This document shows positions 30,912 through 42,887 of a stretch of 64,000 bases of DNA, in pieces. The stretch is from Phaeodactylum tricornutum CCAP 1055/1. Its lineage: Eukaryota; Bacillariophyta; Bacillariophyceae; Surirellales; Neidiaceae. The notes under the pieces are model-generated. The model had not been told where the DNA came from and did not search any database. It saw only the letters and a program-made list of their open reading frames with translations. Each line of letters starts with the position of its first letter. Within the stretch, counting starts at the first letter, position 1. The position numbers and the translations under genes are program-made. Where the stretch lies: assembly GCF_000150955.2 (NCBI RefSeq), contig NC_011671.1, positions 558,001-622,000 on the forward strand. The letters run 5' to 3'.

Positions 30912-32099
30912 ATGCCTCTCGAATGTTGCATGATCTTGATGGACTGTTCCGAGTACATGCGGAACGGAGATTACGTGCCGAACCGTCTGGACGCGCAGAA
31001 GGACGCCACCAACTGGCTCGTCGATGTACAGATCAATTCGCACGCGGAAAGTACCGTCGGGATAAGCGCCGGATCGAACTTGCTCATGTCGCCGACGCGG
31101 GATGTTGCCAAAATCCTTTCTTCCATTCATACCTCGACCTTTGCACCCGTCACGGGGGATATTCCGTCCGCCGTTCAGGTTGCTTCGCTTGCGTTGAAAC
31201 ACCGGCAGAACAAGAATGGCTCGCAGCGTATCATCCTCTTCGTTGGAAGTCCCCTGGACCATCTCGACGACAAGTTGCTCCAAAAGGCGGGGAAACAGCT
31301 GAAGAAGAACAATATTGCCATAGACGTCGTGGTTCTTGGACAGGCGGATACAAACACCCCCAAGTGTCAAATCCTCGTAGACGCTGCAAATGGTCGATTG
31401 GAAGATACTGGCGAACGGACGTGCCACGTGGTTACAGTCCCTACTGGAACCCTCCCTTCCGATATCCTCGCGTCGTCTCCCATTGTGACCGGAGGTGGCG
31501 GGGGTGCCTTTGCCGCCGCAGCAGGGAGTGGAGGCGGTCAAGGGAGCAACTTCGACGATTTCGGTGGCATGGATCCCAACATGGACCCCGAACTCGCCAT
31601 GGCCTTGCGAGTTTCGATGGAAGAGGAACGGGCCCGTCAAGAACGGGTTTCGGCGGCAGCCGCTGCCAACGCCGGAGATTCTGCTGGGGCCGATGAAGCC
31701 AACAATGAAACCGCAAACGATCCGCCGCCTATGGACGCAGAAGAAGCTTTATTGCAGCAAGCCCTAGCGATGAGTATGAATGAAAATGAACCCACCAATA
31801 TTATGGAGGATGCCAAACCAGCAGCAGCGGCGGAAGATCAAATGGACGTGGACGATGACGCAGAAATGCAAATAGCCCTACAAATGTCTGCTCAGCAACA
31901 AGACGAAGCGGGTGCTAGTGGAACTGCTGCCGCTACTGGTAGCAATGAGTTTCAGGATCCCGCTTTTGTGCAGGAATTACTCGGTAGTATGCCCGGTGTG
32001 GATCCCAACGACCCCCAAATTCAAGAAGCTCTGCGCAAAGCGGCGGCGGAAAAGCGGAAAGGAGACGAGGATCAAGCCAACCAGAAAGACCAGGAGTAG
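30912..32099 (+). CDS. RPN10: 26S proteasome ubiquitin receptor RPN10 (PSMD4/S5a)
   Basis: The start is ATG 30912 (MPLECCMILMDCSEYMRNGDY), matching the family N-terminus; five upstream in-frame codons are not needed. The product is 395 residues. A VWA domain spans about 1-190, with ALKHRQNKNGSQRIILFVGSP as the family hallmark. Three ubiquitin-interacting motifs follow near residues 225 (ELAMALRVSMEEE), 277 (EEALLQQALAMSMNE) and 316 (EMQIALQMSAQQ). Human S5a has two UIMs, some other eukaryotes three. It sits in the 19S base/lid interface and captures ubiquitinated substrates. The linkers are Gly/Ala-rich. Confidence 0.96.
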   Translation: MPLECCMILMDCSEYMRNGDYVPNRLDAQKDATNWLVDVQINSHAESTVGISAGSNLLMSPTRDVAKILSSIHTSTFAPVTGDIPSAVQVASLALKHRQNKNGSQRIILFVGSPLDHLDDKLLQKAGKQLKKNNIAIDVVVLGQADTNTPKCQILVDAANGRLEDTGERTCHVVTVPTGTLPSDILASSPIVTGGGGGAFAAAAGSGGGQGSNFDDFGGMDPNMDPELAMALRVSMEEERARQERVSAAAAANAGDSAGADEANNETANDPPPMDAEEALLQQALAMSMNENEPTNIMEDAKPAAAAEDQMDVDDDAEMQIALQMSAQQQDEAGASGTAAATGSNEFQDPAFVQELLGSMPGVDPNDPQIQEALRKAAAEKRKGDEDQANQKDQE

Positions 32100-33124: not shown

Positions 33125-33138
33125 TTAGCATACCTTCC
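33074..33138 (-). repeat. Tandem duplication copy A (mostly downstream of the stop codon)
   Basis: This 65-bp segment matches 33167-33232 with a few substitutions and one indel, at a period of 93 bp. On the minus strand it can still be read as a degenerate copy of the neighbouring protein's C-terminal KHIATLIAAAT segment. Confidence 0.85.
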
Positions 33139-36100
33139 GTCGTGGTTCGCTTGGAAGTTTATTTCCAGTCGCTGCCGCTATCAGCGCGGCAATGTGCTCG
33201 ATTCTCTTTTTTCGCGGGTTAGCACACCTTCCTTCGGATACGACGGATGCGCTATCGGGACCTCTTTCCCTTTCTTGATATGCGTCTGTATCGGCTATCT
33301 CACTATTCGACGTCTCGGCGAGACTTTCTATCAATTTGTGTCGAAGATTGTGGGCCAAAAAGACAGGTGATCCAATTACACTCCTTCTCTTTGGATCGGC
33401 TCCGAGATAGAGCAACTCTTCAACCAGAGGTGATTCTTGTATTAAAATGGCGGAATGCAACAGGCTAGCGTTGTCGAAAACAGGAACAGTAAATGTCAGT
33501 TGTGCGTCCCTTTCTTCTGGGCAAAGCCCATCGTTGAAGCGCTTGATCCAATTGATGACATCCTTGAGCCCTATGCACTCCGTTTTCCGTTTCCGTTCGA
33601 GGTAAGTGGCCTCAACTGGTAAACGCCTCGCACGAAATCGTATAGATGCGCTTCCAAACAGATTTCTGTTCGAGAACGCTTTCGAACTCTCCAACCAAGT
33701 TCCATTCCGAGGACACTTGCGCTGAAGATCTTGGATTTTTAACACAGTAGACCCGATACATTTGACCGAGCCGGATGCCTCCCCGTTTTTACAAATGTCG
33801 ACAACAACACTTCTTTTAGAAGCTACGCATTTGTTGTAGTGCATGTGCCTCGGGACAGAAAGCTCCTTGCCAAAAAGAATATCCTTCGAGAGCGGTACTG
33901 GTAGAGACTTTGCCAATTCGGACTGCTGGTTGGAATCGGGGTAGCGAGCTGATAGCCTAACGGAAATGCAATCTTGATTAAATTGAAGCCCGCCGCTGCT
34001 AGACAATTGAACCTCTTCAAGTCCGAGAAAGATTACTTCGTAGCGCGACCACTCTTTGAGAGACTTGGCATTCTCATACACATGAGCGGCCTTCAAGAAA
34101 ATCTTGGTCAAAACATCTTTCAACATCCAATCTCTTTCGGAAGCAGCGTCGGTTATTCCATTCTGCTGTAGTGAGGCAAGTTGCTCTTTCACATAAGATT
34201 TTGCAACTATAAGTGATGCGGTTGATTTTGCTGAACTCAGCAACCCTTCCTCAAGAATCACAATAACGTCCCGAAACGACCCCGACTTTATTGATCGAAG
34301 GAGTAAAGACTGATTGTCGCAAGGTATTGTATGTCCCAGTCCAGCTCCTTTGTCTTTTGGCAACAAGGCCAACCCGCTATGCTTCTCGTAAAATTCGCAG
34401 GGCTTGCTATCGATAGAATAGTGTCGCTCATGTATTGCGTCCATGAATCGGACCCTTCGGTCTCCTGAGCTCCCGGTACTAGTTCGGCAACTATTCGGAG
34501 GGTGCTCAGCCATACACGGCCTTCCATCATCCATCGATTTACGACCAGTCTCTCCACTCCCAATGGAGAGCTGCTTCTGAATTCCGTGAGGATCTCTTTC
34601 GCGACTAACTCTGTTTGAAGTATCGAGAGTCTGTAGAGCACCACCCGCCCAACCATGGCTCACACGCCCTTTCCAATGACCTTTAGCAGTCCATTCCCCA
34701 AAGGCTTGGGACATCGAACCGTTCAGCGGACTAAGGCGGTCCAGAAATGAAAGGCTGATTATGTGATTCTTTCGCTTGGCCATCTCGTAAATCTCAAATA
34801 ATTGTTCAATACCTAATAACCTGTCCTCCCCTGATACGGATCGCACGACTGAACCGGGACGTATCCGACCATCTCTCGACGCTTGACCTCCGGGACATAT
34901 CGAAACAATCAAACAGTATTCAGCTTGCGAAATTCCAGAGGGTAGGGCAATACAATAAAATCCTAGGGGTTGTTGTGCATCAAACAGAACTTCATACGTC
35001 CTTTCCTGTTTGCTCCCTGCTTTGCTCTCTAGTGCCTTGCGAGGTATATGTAAACTTGTCTTTACGCTGGAATCAATGCTCACGTTGGCGCCAGATAAGA
35101 TGTTTGCACTATCATCGGTTGTGTTTGGGCCACCCACAAGTAGGTTTGCGGAAGACGGGAAACTACTCAAGCCGCCACTCAAGTAAGAACTTTTTTGTTG
35201 CTGGTGAAGCCCTCTCCCAGCTGCATTGCTTTCCTTTGCAAGCAACAGAGAGAGCTTGTACAAAGGTTGTCCCTTTTTAGCTGCATTTTTTAATACTGAC
35301 TTGAACTCCGAAATTGTTCGACATTCCAATCCATCCAAAAGGGCAACTGCACAGCCAAATACAGTGACGAGTGGAGCAAGTGCCTTACCAAGCTGACCAT
35401 CCACATTGATTGAAATAAGTAAGGCTCGGGACTCTCGATTATTTACGACGTACCGAGCTGGTCTAAGCTTGGCCCCAATAGGGTGAGAGAACTCCAACAA
35501 AACATCCTTTGGAAGGCCTTCAAGCTTGAGCTTTTGAAAATTTAAGCCATGTATCCTCTCTCCGACCCACTGTACCATAGCAACCTCAAAAGAAGATACC
35601 GTATCGGGGTGGCCCTCAACCAGGACCTTCCAAACATCAGGAGACTTTTTCAAACTGATTACCTTTGCAGCAAACGGGGCCGCCTTTTTCGCAGATTCAA
35701 GCTTGCGACCCTCACGTTGGTTAAACGGACCGACAAGATAGCGCTGAAAATCTTCAACAGAAAACACTAAGTCACCACCACTTTCCAGCCGCTTCGGCAC
35801 CAATTTCGTAGCTCGCACCACTTTGAGGTCCAAAGGTCGTTTCTTTGTTCTACTTTGTTCGGCTGCATCAATTGGTACTGTCAAAGACAAACGTTCCGGA
35901 AAATCCAAGACTTCACAGTCGTCCCCGCAATCTGAGAGCTCCCCAGTTAGATCGATAACTTCTAAGGCAGAGGAAGACTTGTCGTTCGACAGCTCGTCAT
36001 GGCGTCGGTTATTGCCAGGAGCTGCCAAAGAAGAGTCCAAGTTTGAGGATCCGCAGCTTTCTTTTCTGGATATAAATACTTTTTTCTGTACGCCACTTTT

Positions 36101-36757
36101 TACAGCTTGAGCTATTCGATCGACAAGCTTACTCGTACTCGTGTTTTGCTCGGCCACCGAAATATCGCGATCGAGCTTTCCCATCCAGGCTTGCTCCAGC
36201 TCAGAGACGGCAGCATCGTCGGGAGAATTTGGAGGCAATTGCGAGTTGCCGTACTCTTCGGCATCACTTGTATGTGCAGGAAGAGAATTAGTGTTCGTAT
36301 TGCTGGATGCGTTTCGTTCTGCAGCATGGATTCCAACATTTATGTTGGGCGATTGTCGAGCAATCGTGCTTTCTCCAACAGAGTCGACTACGGAACTCTT
36401 TTCCCGCAAACATTCAGTATCTTTGTTCGATCTAAGTGATAGGGAATCGACCGTCGAGCGTTGACTTTGGTCGGGCATTACCGTAGATCGTAAGCTGTCT
36501 GAGTCTACGAGCTCAGGACTTTGTTGTTGAGGATTGTGCGAAGCTTTTCGAGCTTTCGCTGCTGGTTCATTAGGCATCAACAGGATATCGTTTCCTTCTA
36601 CACTAAACAGCGCCTCTGCCTCGAGTAGTGTGCCAAGTTCAGCGCCATGGACAGGATACCGTAGATTCAGCTGATCGGGACACAGCAGAGGACGGATGTG
36701 GTCGATTGGGATAATGGGCAACGGGAATTTCCGCTTTCTACGTGGAGCAGTTTCCAT
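33125..36757 (-). CDS. Large PDZ-like and ankyrin-containing scaffold protein
   Basis: Single-exon ORF of 1210 residues from ATG 36757. The N-terminal third is Ser/Asn-rich and disordered. There are two PDZ-like regions. The first, about 419-490 (FSHPIGAKLRPARY, VFGCAVALLDG), resembles a GLGF-type domain. The second, about 582-690 (QPLGFYCIALPSG, GGQASRDGRIRPGSVVRSVSG), has the hallmark of PDZ ligand-groove and exit loops. Near the C-terminus (about 1085-1160) a single ankyrin-like unit occurs (DNASLLHSAILIQESPLVEELLYLGADPKRR). No enzyme motif is seen. It is probably a cytosolic scaffold. The last about 30 residues lie in a tandem duplication. Confidence 0.72.
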   Translation of the reverse strand: METAPRRKRKFPLPIIPIDHIRPLLCPDQLNLRYPVHGAELGTLLEAEALFSVEGNDILLMPNEPAAKARKASHNPQQQSPELVDSDSLRSTVMPDQSQRSTVDSLSLRSNKDTECLREKSSVVDSVGESTIARQSPNINVGIHAAERNASSNTNTNSLPAHTSDAEEYGNSQLPPNSPDDAAVSELEQAWMGKLDRDISVAEQNTSTSKLVDRIAQAVKSGVQKKVFISRKESCGSSNLDSSLAAPGNNRRHDELSNDKSSSALEVIDLTGELSDCGDDCEVLDFPERLSLTVPIDAAEQSRTKKRPLDLKVVRATKLVPKRLESGGDLVFSVEDFQRYLVGPFNQREGRKLESAKKAAPFAAKVISLKKSPDVWKVLVEGHPDTVSSFEVAMVQWVGERIHGLNFQKLKLEGLPKDVLLEFSHPIGAKLRPARYVVNNRESRALLISINVDGQLGKALAPLVTVFGCAVALLDGLECRTISEFKSVLKNAAKKGQPLYKLSLLLAKESNAAGRGLHQQQKSSYLSGGLSSFPSSANLLVGGPNTTDDSANILSGANVSIDSSVKTSLHIPRKALESKAGSKQERTYEVLFDAQQPLGFYCIALPSGISQAEYCLIVSICPGGQASRDGRIRPGSVVRSVSGEDRLLGIEQLFEIYEMAKRKNHIISLSFLDRLSPLNGSMSQAFGEWTAKGHWKGRVSHGWAGGALQTLDTSNRVSRERDPHGIQKQLSIGSGETGRKSMDDGRPCMAEHPPNSCRTSTGSSGDRRVRFMDAIHERHYSIDSKPCEFYEKHSGLALLPKDKGAGLGHTIPCDNQSLLLRSIKSGSFRDVIVILEEGLLSSAKSTASLIVAKSYVKEQLASLQQNGITDAASERDWMLKDVLTKIFLKAAHVYENAKSLKEWSRYEVIFLGLEEVQLSSSGGLQFNQDCISVRLSARYPDSNQQSELAKSLPVPLSKDILFGKELSVPRHMHYNKCVASKRSVVVDICKNGEASGSVKCIGSTVLKIQDLQRKCPRNGTWLESSKAFSNRNLFGSASIRFRARRLPVEATYLERKRKTECIGLKDVINWIKRFNDGLCPEERDAQLTFTVPVFDNASLLHSAILIQESPLVEELLYLGADPKRRSVIGSPVFLAHNLRHKLIESLAETSNSEIADTDAYQERERGPDSASVVSEGRCANPRKKRIEHIAALIAAATGNKLPSEPRRKVC
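33167..33232 (-). repeat. Tandem duplication copy B (inside the coding end)
   Basis: This copy encodes the IEHIAALIAAAT helix near the C-terminus of the PDZ/ankyrin protein. Confidence 0.85.
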
Positions 36758-37176
36758 TCTAACAAGCCTAGCAGTGTATATGCTATGTCAAATGAAGGCT
36801 TTTGCAATTACCACACGAGCACTATTCATACACAGCAGCAAGCCGGTTAAGGATTTGCGCGTATTTGTGCGCCATCGGCGTGATCAACAGAAGTTTGCAA
36901 AAAATTGCTGGAAAATGAAGCTTGCCACAATTGACGAAAATTGTTGTCCAAAGTCGCTTTCCCAGTTGAATTTCTCCTTTCTTCCGTCAATCAACACACT
37001 CAAAGATGACGTTGTCACCTTTCGTGATATAAGTTATATGAAAGAGGGCAACCCTCTGTTTGGGCGTTGCGACAATAACGCCACTTATAAAACTAGGTAG
37101 CGTGTAAAATGGTTAGAAGCTACGATGTCGAGATAAAATTCTCTTCGTGCTGATATAAATCCAAACACAAGGAATC
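36758..37176. other. Intergenic interval
   Basis: About 420 bp holding the promoter of the PDZ/ankyrin gene and the 3' end of the translin-TRAX gene. Nothing specific is recognised. Confidence 0.4.
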
Positions 37177-38655
37177 TTAGTTCTCTTCGTTCATAGCAGA
37201 GGACTCTTCAACCTCACTGCGAACATTCCGTCCACCCGCGGCCTCGGAAAGGCTCATTTCGTATAGCATACGTTCTATTTTTTCCACGCTGTATCGGAGT
37301 TGATCCATCTTTTTTGGAATGCCTTGGGGAAGGCGACCAATCGCTTGAAGCGCAGTATAAATACTCGTGTTGGTTTCCAAACATAGCTGCACTCCCCTGA
37401 CATCACGCGCTGTTCCACGTTGCACGGCATATCGGCCGACTTCACCCGTCAAATCGCAAAGCCCTCCCAAGTATTCCGCTGGTTCTAAGGCGATATCAAA
37501 GTCTTCGGGTTTGAGGACAGTGCCGCTTGGCTGGTCCGATTCAACATCCCTACCGTAGTCTTTTCCGTAGAGCCAAGCACAAAAGAGCTTGCCTTCCACA
37601 TACTCCTCCAAAACGTTGGCGAACGATCCATTCCGAAGAAGTGGTTCTTCGACAACTATCGGTAGTAGCTCATTGACAATACCGTTGTGACATTCAGTCA
37701 AAAGTTCCAAAGCTTTTTCTTTGTCACCGCGATGGAGTGCAAAGATCGACTGTTTGGCAGCCTTTTGACCATCGCGGCACTTTTTGATCAAGGATTCACG
37801 CAGGTCATCGCGATAGACCATGCGGGATTTAAGCGCTTGCAAACTGTCCAGCGGCAGCAGCATAGTAGAAGCTTTTTCCACCTTTGAACGCTTCGCTGGT
37901 GATGTCCCCTCGACCGCACGGGAACTATCCGTTACCGCCAGCTCGTACAACAAGGTTTCTAGTGCCTTCAGACTGTACTTGGTCCCATCGTATTTACGTC
38001 GGAGTGGCCCATTGCGAAAATCCAGCTGCAGCAGAAAGTCCAAGAGGTCACCGACCAAATCAGCGGCTGCCTGGACGGACGCGACATCGCGAACGGTAGC
38101 CCGACCTAGTCCGTAGCGCTGTAAGTCTTGCGCCAGCCCCATGCATGCTCCCAAGTATTCTTCGTCCGTGAAGGGTGCCGCAGGAGGAAGCAAGTCGGCG
38201 GACTGCAGAAAACGTTGGAAGGCCAAAAACCGGAGGTAGTCCTCCATTTTGAAGGACAAATTCGCATGGCGAGGAGCCCGATCTGACGCATCGAGCTGCT
38301 TCAAAAGCGGATTTTCTAGCAAAGTATCGAGTTTGGTGGTCACGGATGATGTGTCCTCGTTGTATTCCAGCGCCGTTTTGGCTTGTAGGATGGCAACCTG
38401 CATATCTCGAGAAAGCTCAAATGCACGTTGTCGCTGATCTTCAAGGGTTGTGATTTGTGCTTCTAAAGCCGAAAGGTCTAGTGGTTTCGAATCTGAAGAG
38501 CGATAGGCGTATGGAGGACTCGGCATAGTGATGGCAGTTGCCGTGTGAAAGAGTGAGTTGCTTAAGCAAAGAGCAGCAGTTGCAATCGAAGGTAGCTTGC
38601 AATGATGAAGGGATAGAGCTCGGTTACGGGCTGCACGGATGAGAATAGCCTCCAT
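37177..38655 (-). CDS. Translin-TRAX fusion (single-chain C3PO-like RNase)
   Basis: Single exon, 492 residues from ATG 38655; an alternative start is ATG 38526. Two translin-superfamily domains lie in tandem. Domain 1 (about 125-260) carries the translin signature GPLRRKYDGTKYS (about 220) and LETLLYEL, but its helix reads GLAQDLQRYG, without the catalytic acids. Domain 2 (about 315-470) has LEEYVEGKLF (about 351) and CDLTGEVGRYA (about 401), which align with the four acidic catalytic residues of human TRAX (LQEYVEAVSF, ADLTGELMR). In animals and fungi, translin and TRAX are separate chains of the C3PO nuclease, which trims RNA and helps RISC. The first about 43 residues are Arg/Ala/Leu-rich with almost no acids, possibly a mitochondrial presequence. 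Confidence 0.88.
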   Translation of the reverse strand: MEAILIRAARNRALSLHHCKLPSIATAALCLSNSLFHTATAITMPSPPYAYRSSDSKPLDLSALEAQITTLEDQRQRAFELSRDMQVAILQAKTALEYNEDTSSVTTKLDTLLENPLLKQLDASDRAPRHANLSFKMEDYLRFLAFQRFLQSADLLPPAAPFTDEEYLGACMGLAQDLQRYGLGRATVRDVASVQAAADLVGDLLDFLLQLDFRNGPLRRKYDGTKYSLKALETLLYELAVTDSSRAVEGTSPAKRSKVEKASTMLLPLDSLQALKSRMVYRDDLRESLIKKCRDGQKAAKQSIFALHRGDKEKALELLTECHNGIVNELLPIVVEEPLLRNGSFANVLEEYVEGKLFCAWLYGKDYGRDVESDQPSGTVLKPEDFDIALEPAEYLGGLCDLTGEVGRYAVQRGTARDVRGVQLCLETNTSIYTALQAIGRLPQGIPKKMDQLRYSVEKIERMLYEMSLSEAAGGRNVRSEVEESSAMNEEN

Positions 38656-39253
38656 TCAATTTCGCCGAAGCGGGATGGATGAGAACAGGAAATCACGAAA
38701 ACCAAAAAGTGAAGTGACCGATTGACTGTAGAAACCACCGGATATGTCGAAGTATCGGTATGCGAGTAGAGGAAAGTAACGACGTCGGTACAATCAACCC
38801 AAGAGACGTGGACTATGGAAAATATGGTGGTAGATTGGTAAGGAGACTATCGATGGGTCAGTTGGTAGTTGAGAGAAGGAGTTTGGAACCTTGACCACAG
38901 GACTCTCTCCATACACTAACGTGGTTGAAAAGCTCTTACTGACAGTGAGAAATGTTTTTATGTACAACGCTGAGAGGAGTCAAACCTGATTGTATACCGT
39001 TAGACTCGTTAGTCAAGTACCAGATATATTGAAACCTTTTTCATGCCTAAGAACACTCTATCTTGTTCTTTGCCACCCCTTCCTAAATGCAACATTTGGA
39101 GACGTGTCGGAATGAAAAAATCTCAGTTTCATCACGATTGAATGCGCAGAGTCGTGTGCGTTTGGCAACATTCGTTACTTTGTAGAGATTCATTGCTTGC
39201 GTGCATGATCTTTAGCCCAGTATTCCTTTACCGAGGCTTGGACTTTGTCGCTA
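38656..39253. promoter_or_regulatory. Divergent promoter region, translin-TRAX / ankyrin paralogue 2
   Basis: About 600 bp between two divergent starts. A TCACTGTCAG-like word (minus strand) lies near 38940. Nothing else is recognised. Confidence 0.35.
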
Positions 39254-40000
39254 ATGGACATTCATCGGGATTGTATCTTTGGAGGCCTTCTTTATATGAT
39301 TTATCAGAGATGTTGTGTCCCACGTCTTTTTCGGTATGCCGATCAAGGCCATTGGGACAAAATACCTCATCGAGCCTCAATGGCGCCTAGGGAAGCCAAG
39401 TTTGTCCACCGCTACGCACCTGCCGAAACAGCTCTACATCGAGTGGTGCGTTCGCTCCGAGTTGTCTCCTGCCAAGAAGTTACGAACGCCTTCGCCAACG
39501 GCCAAAACAACCAAACGCCACCACAAACAGATTCCAATGAAGATAGTCGTGAACCGGAAACCGCCGAAGAAACAGTAACGGAAAATGAGGAGTTCGGAAA
39601 TTTAATGCTTGCCGCCATTGGCAGCATTTTGAAGGCCTATCCGGCCGCCGCCTCGATACCCAATATGTTTGGACGTACGGCGATGCATCTTGTTTGTATG
39701 GATTTGTCCCCAGCGCGAAAAGAGGCAGCACTGCTCCTACTGGAACACAGTCCCCAGACGGTGAAAGAAATAGACCATTTTGGTCGAACGCCACTGCATT
39801 ACGTTTTGGACCAGCAACAGAACTCAATCACCAGCAACCTTTCGCTGGAACTAGTCAGAAGCATTTTGTTGCACGACCCCAAAGCCTTGCAACAATGCGA
39901 TACCAGCAAGGAGACACCCTATGATCTCCTGCTCAAACAAGACTTATCGGGATGCAGTACAGCTCTGCAGCAACTTTTGGATGAGCATAGGGAAGAGTAA
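39254..40000 (+). CDS. Small ankyrin-repeat protein, paralogue 2
   Basis: The first true ATG is 39254, giving 248 residues; the preceding TTG codon is not a start. It shares with the gene at 25353 the N-terminal module (LFRYADQGHWDKIPHR, PREAKFVHRYAPAETALHRVVR) and about three ankyrin repeats (FGRTAMHLVC, FGRTPLHYVL, CDTSKETPYDLLL). It differs by a Gln/Asn/Glu-rich insert (about 85-115) between module and repeats. Function is unknown; it probably binds proteins. The start of the conserved module at about residue 25 suggests that the true Met could be the one in YMIYQRC. Confidence 0.75.
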   Translation: MDIHRDCIFGGLLYMIYQRCCVPRLFRYADQGHWDKIPHRASMAPREAKFVHRYAPAETALHRVVRSLRVVSCQEVTNAFANGQNNQTPPQTDSNEDSREPETAEETVTENEEFGNLMLAAIGSILKAYPAAASIPNMFGRTAMHLVCMDLSPARKEAALLLLEHSPQTVKEIDHFGRTPLHYVLDQQQNSITSNLSLELVRSILLHDPKALQQCDTSKETPYDLLLKQDLSGCSTALQQLLDEHREE

Positions 40001-40592
40001 GTTATTAGTCCAAGAGTCGCCAGACTATCGTCACCCTGTCCAGAGCGCATTGCTGTTAAAACCTTGGCCTCGTAAACTTGTTGTCCTCTTATTGCCATTT
40101 TACGCGTAAAGGTGTAATTCAAGGTCAGAAACTTTCTGGTTCATCTTACATTAGCCGTTACCCATATGGTACTTGTCCATGGAGGAGGTCGTTTCACACG
40201 TTTGGTAATGAGTCCCGGAAATGCGCGTAAATCACGCAAAATGCCCGAACGCACCGTTCGGGTTTCCGGATAAGATTCGGAGCGCAGGAGTTCGATGGGA
40301 TTCCACGGTCAAATTCGACCACAAGGCGAACGCGAAAGCATTCACCGATTGGAAGGAATGCGAAAGACCACGCCTTTCTTCGAAACCGATAGACGAACGA
40401 GATCGATTCCTTGAGGATGTAAGATTGAGATGGGACAAGAGTAGGTTGTCCCATGATATATCGCTTTCATAAATTTGATTGTTTTATGTCATTCCGTGTC
40501 ATACTGAAATCACATCTGAAAAAGCTTTCGACAGAGATACGTCGACGTACACTAATACACGCAGCCACCAGACAAACCACTTCATCGATACC
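40001..40592. promoter_or_regulatory. KatG upstream region
   Basis: About 590 bp between the ankyrin stop and the KatG start. An 83-codon ORF at 40221-40472 is charged but overlaps another on the opposite strand, and neither is recognised. It probably contains the KatG promoter. Confidence 0.35.
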
Positions 40593-42887
40593 ATGGGCTC
40601 CGATAGCAAATGCCCCTTTGCACCCAAAATGAACAAAGCTGCTTCGGCGAACAGCTATTGGTGGCCTGATAATATCAACCTGAAAATACTAAATCAGCAA
40701 GGGGCCAACAACCCCGACCCTTCCTTTAATTACAAGGAAGCGTTCCGAGAGTTGGACGTTGAGATGGTGAAGCGTGATGTCAACAAGATGCTGACTACCT
40801 CTCAGGACTGGTGGCCTGCTGATTGGGGTCACTATGGGCCTTTTATGATTCGAATGGTACGTACACCAACGCCTTGTAGACTTCGTCGCGGTTTCGATTG
40901 CTGTGCACCTAACGCGTATACTTTCTTGTTTCGCGCACAGGCATGGCACGCGGCAGGAACCTACCGTATTTCCGATGGAAGAGGCGGTGCCAACACCGCT
41001 AACCAACGTTTCGCGCCATTGAATAGCTGGCCGGACAACGCCAACCTTGATAAGGCTCGTCGTCTCATGTGGCCAGTTAAGCAAAAGTATGGCCGAAAGC
41101 TTTCGTGGGGTGATTTAATGATGCTCACGGGTAATCAGGCTTTGGAAATTATGGGCCTAAAAACAATTGGCTTTGCATTTGGTCGTGAAGATATATACTC
41201 CCCCGAGGACGATGTGTACTGGGGTCCGGAAAAGGAGATGCTCAGTAACGATAGGTTCGACGAGAACGGTGATATTAAACGCCCACTTGGAGCCTCCGAA
41301 ATGGGTCTCATTTACGTAAATCCTGAAGGTCATGATAACGAGCCGAATCCAACGAAGTCTGCTCACGATATCCGTCAGACCTTCAGAAATATGGCCATGG
41401 ACGATTACGAAACTGTCGCACTTATTGCTGGTGGACATACATTTGGAAAGACCCATGGCGCCGCTCCAGTATCACACCAAGGACCAGAACCGGAAGGTGC
41501 ATCAATCGAACATCAACAGCTTGGCTATCTGAGCGACTACGGGACCGGTAAAGGAAAAGATACCACCACTAGTGGTCTCGAAGGAGCTTGGACCGAAACC
41601 CCAATCCAATGGGATATGAACTATTTCAAGAATTTGTTCGAGTATGAATGGGAGGTTCATAAAGGCCCGGGGGGTCGCCACCAATGGAGACCGACCGACA
41701 AGTCTACCTTTGAAATGGTACCCGATGCTCACGAGAAGGGTAAAAAGAACCCCCCAATGATGTTCACCACTGACATTTCGTTGAAGATCGATCCAATCTA
41801 CGGGCCGATCTCTCGTCACTTCTACCATCATCCAGATGAATTTTCTGCTGCTTTTGCAAAGGCATGGTACAAGTTATTACACCGTGATATGGGACCAGTC
41901 TCTCGTTGTCTAGGAAGCGATGTTCCGGAACCCCAATTGTGGCAGGATCCGATCCCCTCTCTTGACCATGAGCTGATCGACGACGAAGATGTTGCCAAAC
42001 TTAAAAAGCAAATTCTTGGCTCGACCGGTATCGCCGGCAAGATTTTGGGGTCTAGCGGCCCTTGTGTATCTGAACTAGTGAAGGTTGCCTGGGGTTCTGC
42101 ATGTACATACCGAGGCACGGATCACCGTGGCGGAGCGAATGGTGCTCGTATCCGTTTGGCACCCCAAAACACTTGGAAGGTAAATGACCCGGAAGAGCTC
42201 AAAAGAGTGCTAGAACATCTGGAACAGATTCAACTAGACTTCAATGAGCAACAGAAAGGCAGTAACAAGCGAGTATCACTAGCAGATTTGATTGTTCTAG
42301 GTGGTTGCGCTGCAATTGAGTATGCTGCCAAAAATGCTGGCAATGATATCAATATACCGTTCTCCCCTGGACGCACGGACGCGTCATCGGAGCAGACGGT
42401 TGCAGAATCATTTGACGCTCTGGAACCGAGCGCAGATGGCTTTCGCAACTATTTGAAAGAAGGCCAAAGTGCCAAACCGGAAGAGCTCCTGTTAAATCAT
42501 GCTCACTTGCTTACTTTGACTTCCCCCGAGATGACGGTGCTATTGGGAGGGCTTCGCGTTTTGAAGGCAAACACGGGAAATTCTGAGATGGGTGTATTTA
42601 CAAAAAACCCAGAAACGCTAACGAATGATTTCTTTGTCAATCTTCTGGACATAAACACGACCTGGTCGTCTGTGGAACAAGACAAGAACCTATTCGATGG
42701 TCTGGAATACGGCACAGGGAAACTGAATTGGAAAGCGAGTCGTTTCGATTTGATCTTTGGTTCCAATTCTGAGCTCCGTGCGATTGCAGAGTATTACGGT
42801 AGTGATGATTCAAACGAAGTGTTTTTAAAGGATTTTGTCAAAGCTTGGACAAAGGTGATGGAGCTTGATCGTTTTGATTTGAAATAA
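40593..42887 (+). CDS. katG: Catalase-peroxidase KatG (two exons)
   Basis: The start is ATG 40593 (MGSDSKCPF). Exons 40593-40856 and 40941-42887 give 736 residues, the usual KatG size. The intron 40857-40940 (GTACGT..GCACAG, 84 bp) is a multiple of three and has no stop. Removal restores [13 protein letters not shown], placing the distal Arg87, Trp90 and His91 together. The Tyr of GLIYVNPEG and the Met of FRNMAMDD complete the Met-Tyr-Trp adduct trio. The proximal His lies in [10 protein letters not shown]. The second, degenerate peroxidase half ([19 protein letters not shown]) is present. It removes H2O2 by catalase and peroxidase reactions. No signal peptide is present, so it is probably cytosolic. 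KatG in algae is generally of bacterial origin. Confidence 0.96.

Follow-up and report, generated by a model that had tools for sequence, protein, structure and literature searches.

In the diatom Phaeodactylum tricornutum, a gene on the minus strand of contig 3 encodes a protein of 492 amino acids that is, on well-supported sequence evidence, composed of two Translin-family domains in a single chain of the C3PO type. The gene occupies positions 37177..38655 of the window, by which we mean the whole stretch of 64,000 nucleotides analysed here (contig 3, 558001-622000). Residue alignments support a first half that is translin-like and catalytically degenerate, and a second half that is TRAX-like with a full acidic tetrad. 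We consider it probable that its product is a single-chain endoribonuclease of the C3PO type, a judgement that concerns the mechanism of the protein and not its history.

The coding region is a single open reading frame (ORF) that runs from ATG to TAA without an internal stop, as seen in the ORF list and the translation. Pfam model PF01997 (Translin) matches the 492-residue protein in two stretches with 122.3 bits and an E value of 3.4e-35 (cut-off 25.9 bits). The proposal of an earlier note on this DNA that a translin-type and a TRAX-type domain share one uninterrupted frame is borne out. In a six-frame search of the genome, each domain also exceeds the cut-off separately, with 82.9 bits for the C-terminal domain (contig positions 595249-595806) and 36.6 bits for the N-terminal domain (595933-596352). 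The features of the gene, given in window coordinates, are the following.

37177..38655, minus strand: two-domain Translin-family protein, 492 amino acids (ORF list, translation, PF01997 in two stretches)
38527..38655, minus strand: possible leader, residues 1-43 ahead of Met44, whose translation is doubtful (start contexts, composition, hydrophobic moment)
37921..38481, minus strand: domain 1, about residues 59-245, translin-like with a degenerate catalytic tetrad (PF01997, 36.6 bits; best PDB matches are translins)
38230..38241, minus strand: EYVE-equivalent site of domain 1, D139..R142 (alignment)
38125..38139, minus strand: DLTGE-equivalent site of domain 1, G173..D177 (alignment)
37984..38004, minus strand: LRRKYDG, residues 218-224, which corresponds to basic-3 of translin (alignment)
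37855..37920, minus strand: linker, roughly residues 246-267, which includes Met265 and a short basic stretch, PAKRSK (translation, start contexts)
37243..37854, minus strand: domain 2, about residues 268-471, TRAX-like and predicted to be catalytic
37594..37605, minus strand: EYVE, residues 351-354, with E351 and E354 equivalent to human TRAX 126 and 129 (alignment; E in all 27 archaeal rows)
37441..37455, minus strand: DLTGE, residues 401-405, with D401 and E405 equivalent to human TRAX D193 and E197 (alignment; D and E in all 27 archaeal rows)

Residues were compared in an alignment of both halves with six eukaryotic chains and 27 archaeal homologues (28 loci, one of which was left out because of a stop). 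Domain 2 carries all four TRAX active-site acids: E351, E354, D401 and E405 align with positions 126, 129, 193 and 197 of human TRAX, which read E, E, D and E in every archaeal row, and the claim that the second domain keeps EYVE and DLTGE is therefore upheld. The first three of these positions are ones that we take to be active-site acids in the human protein. Residue E197 is catalytic and is the sole TRAX catalytic residue common to translin, as stated in an excerpt of PMC9246224. In the N half, the corresponding residues are D139, R142, G173 and D177. The first domain had been said to lack the catalytic acids, which is correct for the two non-acidic residues (R142 and G173) but not for the two aspartates. 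D177 occupies the E197 position, where the Trichoderma translin likewise has an aspartate, together with another at the 193 position. Among the PDB chains, one fly TRAX reads EFIQ and the other EFIE, and one AfTRAX chain has AAAVGE instead of ADAVGE. The EFIQ and AAAVGE chains look like depositors' mutants, so these positions presumably matter.

Translins are the closest solved relatives of domain 1 by sequence comparison with the PDB: for the N half (residues 1-263), nine translin sequences give E values of 7.2e-7 to 8.2e-6, and human TRAX gives 0.048. For the C half (residues 265-492), the E values are 4.8e-7 and 6.3e-6 with AfTRAX, 8.6e-7 and 2.0e-6 with fly TRAX, 5.1e-6 with human TRAX and 3.4e-5 to 9.7e-4 with translins. 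With blastp, the best partner of the N half is the C half (50.1 bits), followed by human translin (45.8 bits) and human TRAX (33.5 bits), and the C half scores 51.2 bits with the best archaeal row, 47.4 with the N half, 46.6 with human TRAX and 42.0 with the Trichoderma translin. The two halves align with each other at an E value of 3e-12 (24% over 234 positions), and by these sequence scores each appears about equally close to the other half and to TSN or TRAX. Four NCBIfam models (NF011161, NF011157, NF011160 and NF011158) also match the C-terminal TRAX-like domain, the best with 62.3 bits and an E value of 3.6e-17, all below their cut-offs. These models carry the name haloacid dehalogenase superfamily protein, which looks wrong and may mislabel archaeal TRAX-like proteins.

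The LRRKYDG stretch of domain 1 had been offered as a translin signature. The role of the equivalent basic-3 motif of translin is treated in part of PMC3299731. However, LR[RK]K.D is also found in 9 of the 27 archaeal homologues, all with the full acid tetrad, and two of these carry DG as well. Because catalytic-type archaeal homologues have the motif, it is not diagnostic of translin and we have dropped it as a signature. Equivalents of translin R153 and E206 are present in both halves, as R180 and E233 (N half) and R408 and E461 (C half). Human translin requires the salt bridge between these two residues to assemble beyond dimers. According to a passage of PMC3834833, the translin octamer falls apart into dimers with either E206A or R153A, and both diatom domains thus seem capable of taking a place in a C3PO shell. 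All 27 archaeal rows keep the R153 equivalent.

The earlier note would have been undermined by separate full-length TSN and TSNAX genes in the same genome if the present frame were unexpressed, and no such separate gene was matched. A six-frame PF01997 search of the genome (27,450,724 bases in 88 contigs), conducted without regard to introns, gave two matches at E <= 0.001, both within the 492-residue frame, and a piece of fly translin searched at E values up to 10 matched nothing beyond the same two domains. A separate full-length TSN or TSNAX gene is therefore unlikely, although one with very short exons or one left unassembled could escape the search. The genome also has one Piwi-type match, and two of its loci match RNase III-type proteins.

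Eukaryotic C3PO, as in the human (3pja) and Drosophila (3axj) structures, likewise has two types of Translin-family domain, with an EYVE/DLTGE-type tetrad in one only, and its oligomer salt-bridge residues are kept in both diatom halves. However, the known complexes are built from two chains rather than one, the human stoichiometry is 6:2 rather than the 1:1 expected here, and the loop ahead of the diatom DLTGE helix is shorter than in the two TRAX rows aligned. The archaeal TRAX-like C3PO proteins (Archaeoglobus, 3zc0 and 3zc1; Nanoarchaeum, 5jr9) differ in being single-domain proteins. Translin homo-octamers (human, mouse and Trichoderma virens, 8z7a) resemble domain 1 in their LRxKYDG-type basic motif and degenerate acids, and the T. 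virens protein has the QDL spelling in common with it, whereas the diatom domain 1 is joined to a catalytic-type domain.

The genome collections searched for relatives were prokaryotic, in addition to the P. tricornutum genome itself. In a survey of 294 archaeal genomes of one phylum, in which the best candidates were scored, 84 have a PF01997-type match at E <= 0.001 and 78 have one above the cut-off. Among the matches listed for those 84 genomes, none has two full domains in one frame, and the three genomes with two pieces in one frame carry parts of one domain. Scans of viral contigs with the 492-residue query and with a mouse translin fragment found no relative, and one scan of genome contigs with an AfTRAX fragment found two Archaeoglobi loci. 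In the open-access literature, we found no paper linking translin with Phaeodactylum, none among papers on translin and diatoms that by its title concerns such a protein, and none on a fused form by title or abstract, although domain databases may list the architecture.

The start of the protein is less certain. The first ATG comes immediately after an in-frame TGA, and its -3 base is T, whereas Met44 has A at -3 and offers a better start context, so residues 1-43 may be untranslated. This stretch, described earlier as an Arg-rich, acid-poor leader that may direct the protein to mitochondria, does have a net charge of +3 as counted in our test for such a leader, but it contains just 3 Arg, 1 Lys and 1 Glu in 43 residues, its top 18-residue hydrophobic moment is 0.27 among the windows sampled, and the context of the first ATG is poor, which together make for a weak case. 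The synonymous-codon score of the leader is 0.003 as compared with 0.04-0.06 in both domains, by a weak test in which other long frames of the window span 0.007-0.064. The linker between the domains is about 22 codons long and free of stops, which leaves no space for an ordinary intergenic spacer between two genes. Its PAKRSK stretch could equally be a nuclear signal, as we presume from a familiar pattern.

Several results weigh against reading the protein as a single-chain endoribonuclease of the C3PO type. Structure models show domain 2 as a helical fold of the C3PO-subunit kind, and a VIA-align list has all 16 C3PO-family rows aligned to the C half (model ranges start at 261-270). However, in structure comparison this model scores 19.6 and 18.9 with fly TRAX and 20.6 with the best translin. 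Since fly TRAX does not outscore the translins, the likeness of domain 2 to C3PO proteins in general is clearer than its likeness to TRAX. The N half is poorly modelled, with a mean pLDDT of 54 when modelled alone and block values of 38-73 when the full chain is modelled, and its Foldseek matches all have E values of at least 0.011 and TM-scores of at most 0.41, with C3PO-family chains at ranks 1-42. The structure prediction that had been suggested as a check thus bears out domain 2, but the fold of the N half rests on sequence because its model is weak. Moreover, the E206 equivalent is aligned in 0 of the 27 archaeal rows (K in 24, R in 2 and M in 1). Trees add to these points. A maximum-likelihood (ML) tree of 35 rows and 195 columns joins the two halves with values of 89/79, with warnings raised about long branches and about the composition of the N half. 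When the N half is omitted, the C half stands at the base of the eukaryotic TSN and TRAX group and not with TRAX.

None of the placements enforced on these trees is rejected by the approximately unbiased (AU) test. With both halves present, grouping the N half with translins gives a p-AU of 0.204, the C half with TRAX 0.165, and the C half with archaea 0.161. When the C half is omitted, the N half falls inside translins (93/98), and its grouping with TRAX still has a p-AU of 0.192. When the N half is omitted, the C half with TSN gives 0.132 and with TRAX 0.127. Neither half is therefore placed firmly with TSN or TRAX, a further difference from eukaryotic C3PO, and in the suggested comparison with human TSN and TSNAX the N half is nearer to translin by pairwise score (45.8 versus 33.5 bits). 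The idea of a TSN-TRAX fusion holds for two domain types in one chain, but a history of fusion is not established by trees that fit duplication too. We lean towards an origin in which genes of the translin and TRAX types were joined, whether or not a local homogenisation followed.

The strongest competitor is internal duplication, wherein an ancestral TRAX-like catalytic gene was duplicated in tandem and in frame and the active site decayed in the first copy, so that a division of labour like that of C3PO arose anew, independently of the animal pair. In its favour, besides the joining of the halves in the ML tree and their mutual alignment, duplication trees are ahead of fusion trees by 8.26 log-likelihood units (lnL) in a 13-row comparison under LG+G4. 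Alignments simulated under two fusion trees with the same model reached that lead in 0 of 60 and 0 of 60 cases, whereas those simulated under two duplication trees did so in 19 of 60 and 12 of 60 (31 of 120 together). Of the fusion-simulated alignments, 5 of 60 and 7 of 60 favoured a duplication tree. Long-branch attraction alone is rejected as the reason that the halves join, because none of the 120 fusion simulations reached 8.26 under LG+G4, a test that does not extend to model misfit. In addition, all of 11 further runs, which covered five models, five alignments and one column set, put duplication ahead, with leads of 1.5 to 8.3. However, the lead is 2.9 under LG+C20+G4, three of the five re-alignments reduce it to 1.5-2.8, and nearly all of it resides in one 20-column block, which contributes 8.28 of the total 8.26 while the remaining nine blocks sum to about zero. 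Removal of this block leaves 0.4, 0.4 or -0.3, depending on the cut. Also unfavourable to duplication are that long branches meet, that the N half is an outlier in composition, and that this half scores 12 bits better with human translin than with human TRAX. Because the block was picked after its support had been seen, its removal does not cancel the duplication lead, and with all 11 runs agreeing we regard internal duplication as a plausible, if less favoured, origin. Somewhat more doubtful is the fuller version of this history, in which a single diatom gene gave rise anew to machinery of the C3PO kind: an RNase resembling TRAX would have been duplicated in frame and its first copy, having lost the active site, turned into an RNA-binding half, in parallel with and independently of the divergence of translin from TRAX in animals and fungi.

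The supporting block includes a motif, RxTxRDVxxVQ, that is present in both halves and was not seen at that place in the TSN, TRAX and archaeal rows inspected. A motif common to both halves fits duplication. It might also reflect a fusion of translin and TRAX genes after which one half acquired a short stretch of the other, by copying or by convergence. This scenario would account for sister support that is limited to one block and for pairwise scores that put the N half with translin and the C half with TRAX or archaeal proteins. However, the DNA bears no trace of recent conversion: the halves have identical codons at 15 of their 46 identical residues, where 17.0 are expected from codon usage, and 7 of 14 identical residues share a codon in the 31-residue stretch with the block. 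With codon sharing at chance, any joining or homogenising event must be old, and we judge fusion followed by such an old homogenisation to be unlikely. The stretches that contain the motif lie at window positions 38071-38163 and 37387-37479, both on the minus strand, and also share 12 identical bases, GAATACTTGGGA, that encode EYLG.

Whatever its origin, the protein would most simply function as a single-chain C3PO. In the human complex, TRAX replaces two protomers of the translin octamer and holds the catalytic sites, and a nicked passenger strand is degraded, whereas C3PO-type complexes of Neurospora remove 5' fragments of pre-tRNAs (both from sections of PMC3834833). By analogy, the first diatom domain would serve as a structural and RNA-binding subunit, and the second would cut single-stranded RNA with a bound metal. 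The domains may pair with each other and with those of other chains to form a shell like that of translin and TRAX, the simplest version of which would have four chains, eight domains and four active sites. One chain fixes the domain types at 1:1, and the ratio suggested earlier is sustained in this respect. Likely substrates would be those of known C3PO, namely 5' tRNA leaders freed by RNase P and nicked passenger strands, and either class is possible. P. tricornutum has predicted Dicer-like and Argonaute-like genes and silencing triggered by target-gene sequences, and no canonical microRNAs according to the part of PMC4247016 consulted.

The protein might instead be catalytically idle or have a role unrelated to RNase activity, such as binding RNA or DNA, with its acids kept for structure or metal binding only. 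Translin does have RNase-independent roles (PMC9246224, in part), but the four acids are exact in one half only and invariant in all 27 archaeal rows, a pattern that fits selection for catalysis, and we therefore find an idle protein improbable. More improbable still is that one gene yields both the full chain and a separate TRAX-like chain begun at Met265, giving assemblies that are not 1:1, since this codon lies in the linker just ahead of domain 2 and has A at -3 but is preceded by five in-frame Met codons (1, 44, 85, 137 and 172) and nothing else favours it.

Other frames surround the gene. Downstream on the same strand lies a frame of 1210 amino acids (window 33125-36757, minus strand) with no Pfam match at E 0.01. 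Upstream and divergent is a frame with weak ankyrin-repeat matches below cut-offs (39245-40000, plus strand), which is followed by a 764-residue frame (40593-42884, plus strand) that matches catalase/peroxidase, with 1005.6 bits for the NCBIfam model TIGR00198 cat_per_HPI (cut-off 770) and two stretches for the Pfam peroxidase model. The match is to a KatG-type enzyme, a kind best known from bacteria. A 395-residue frame (30912-32096, plus strand) has VWA_2 and a UIM match slightly below cut-off, a layout that we take to be that of the proteasome subunit Rpn10. Rfam gave no match in window positions 34000-42000.

A natural single-chain C3PO with a 1:1 ratio would make the number of catalytic subunits needed by the shell testable with one expressed gene. 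P. tricornutum is transformable, and its genes for RNA interference (RNAi) are few and divergent, so a knock-out could separate a role in tRNA-leader removal from a role in RNAi. If the internal duplication proves true, the same division of labour would have evolved twice.
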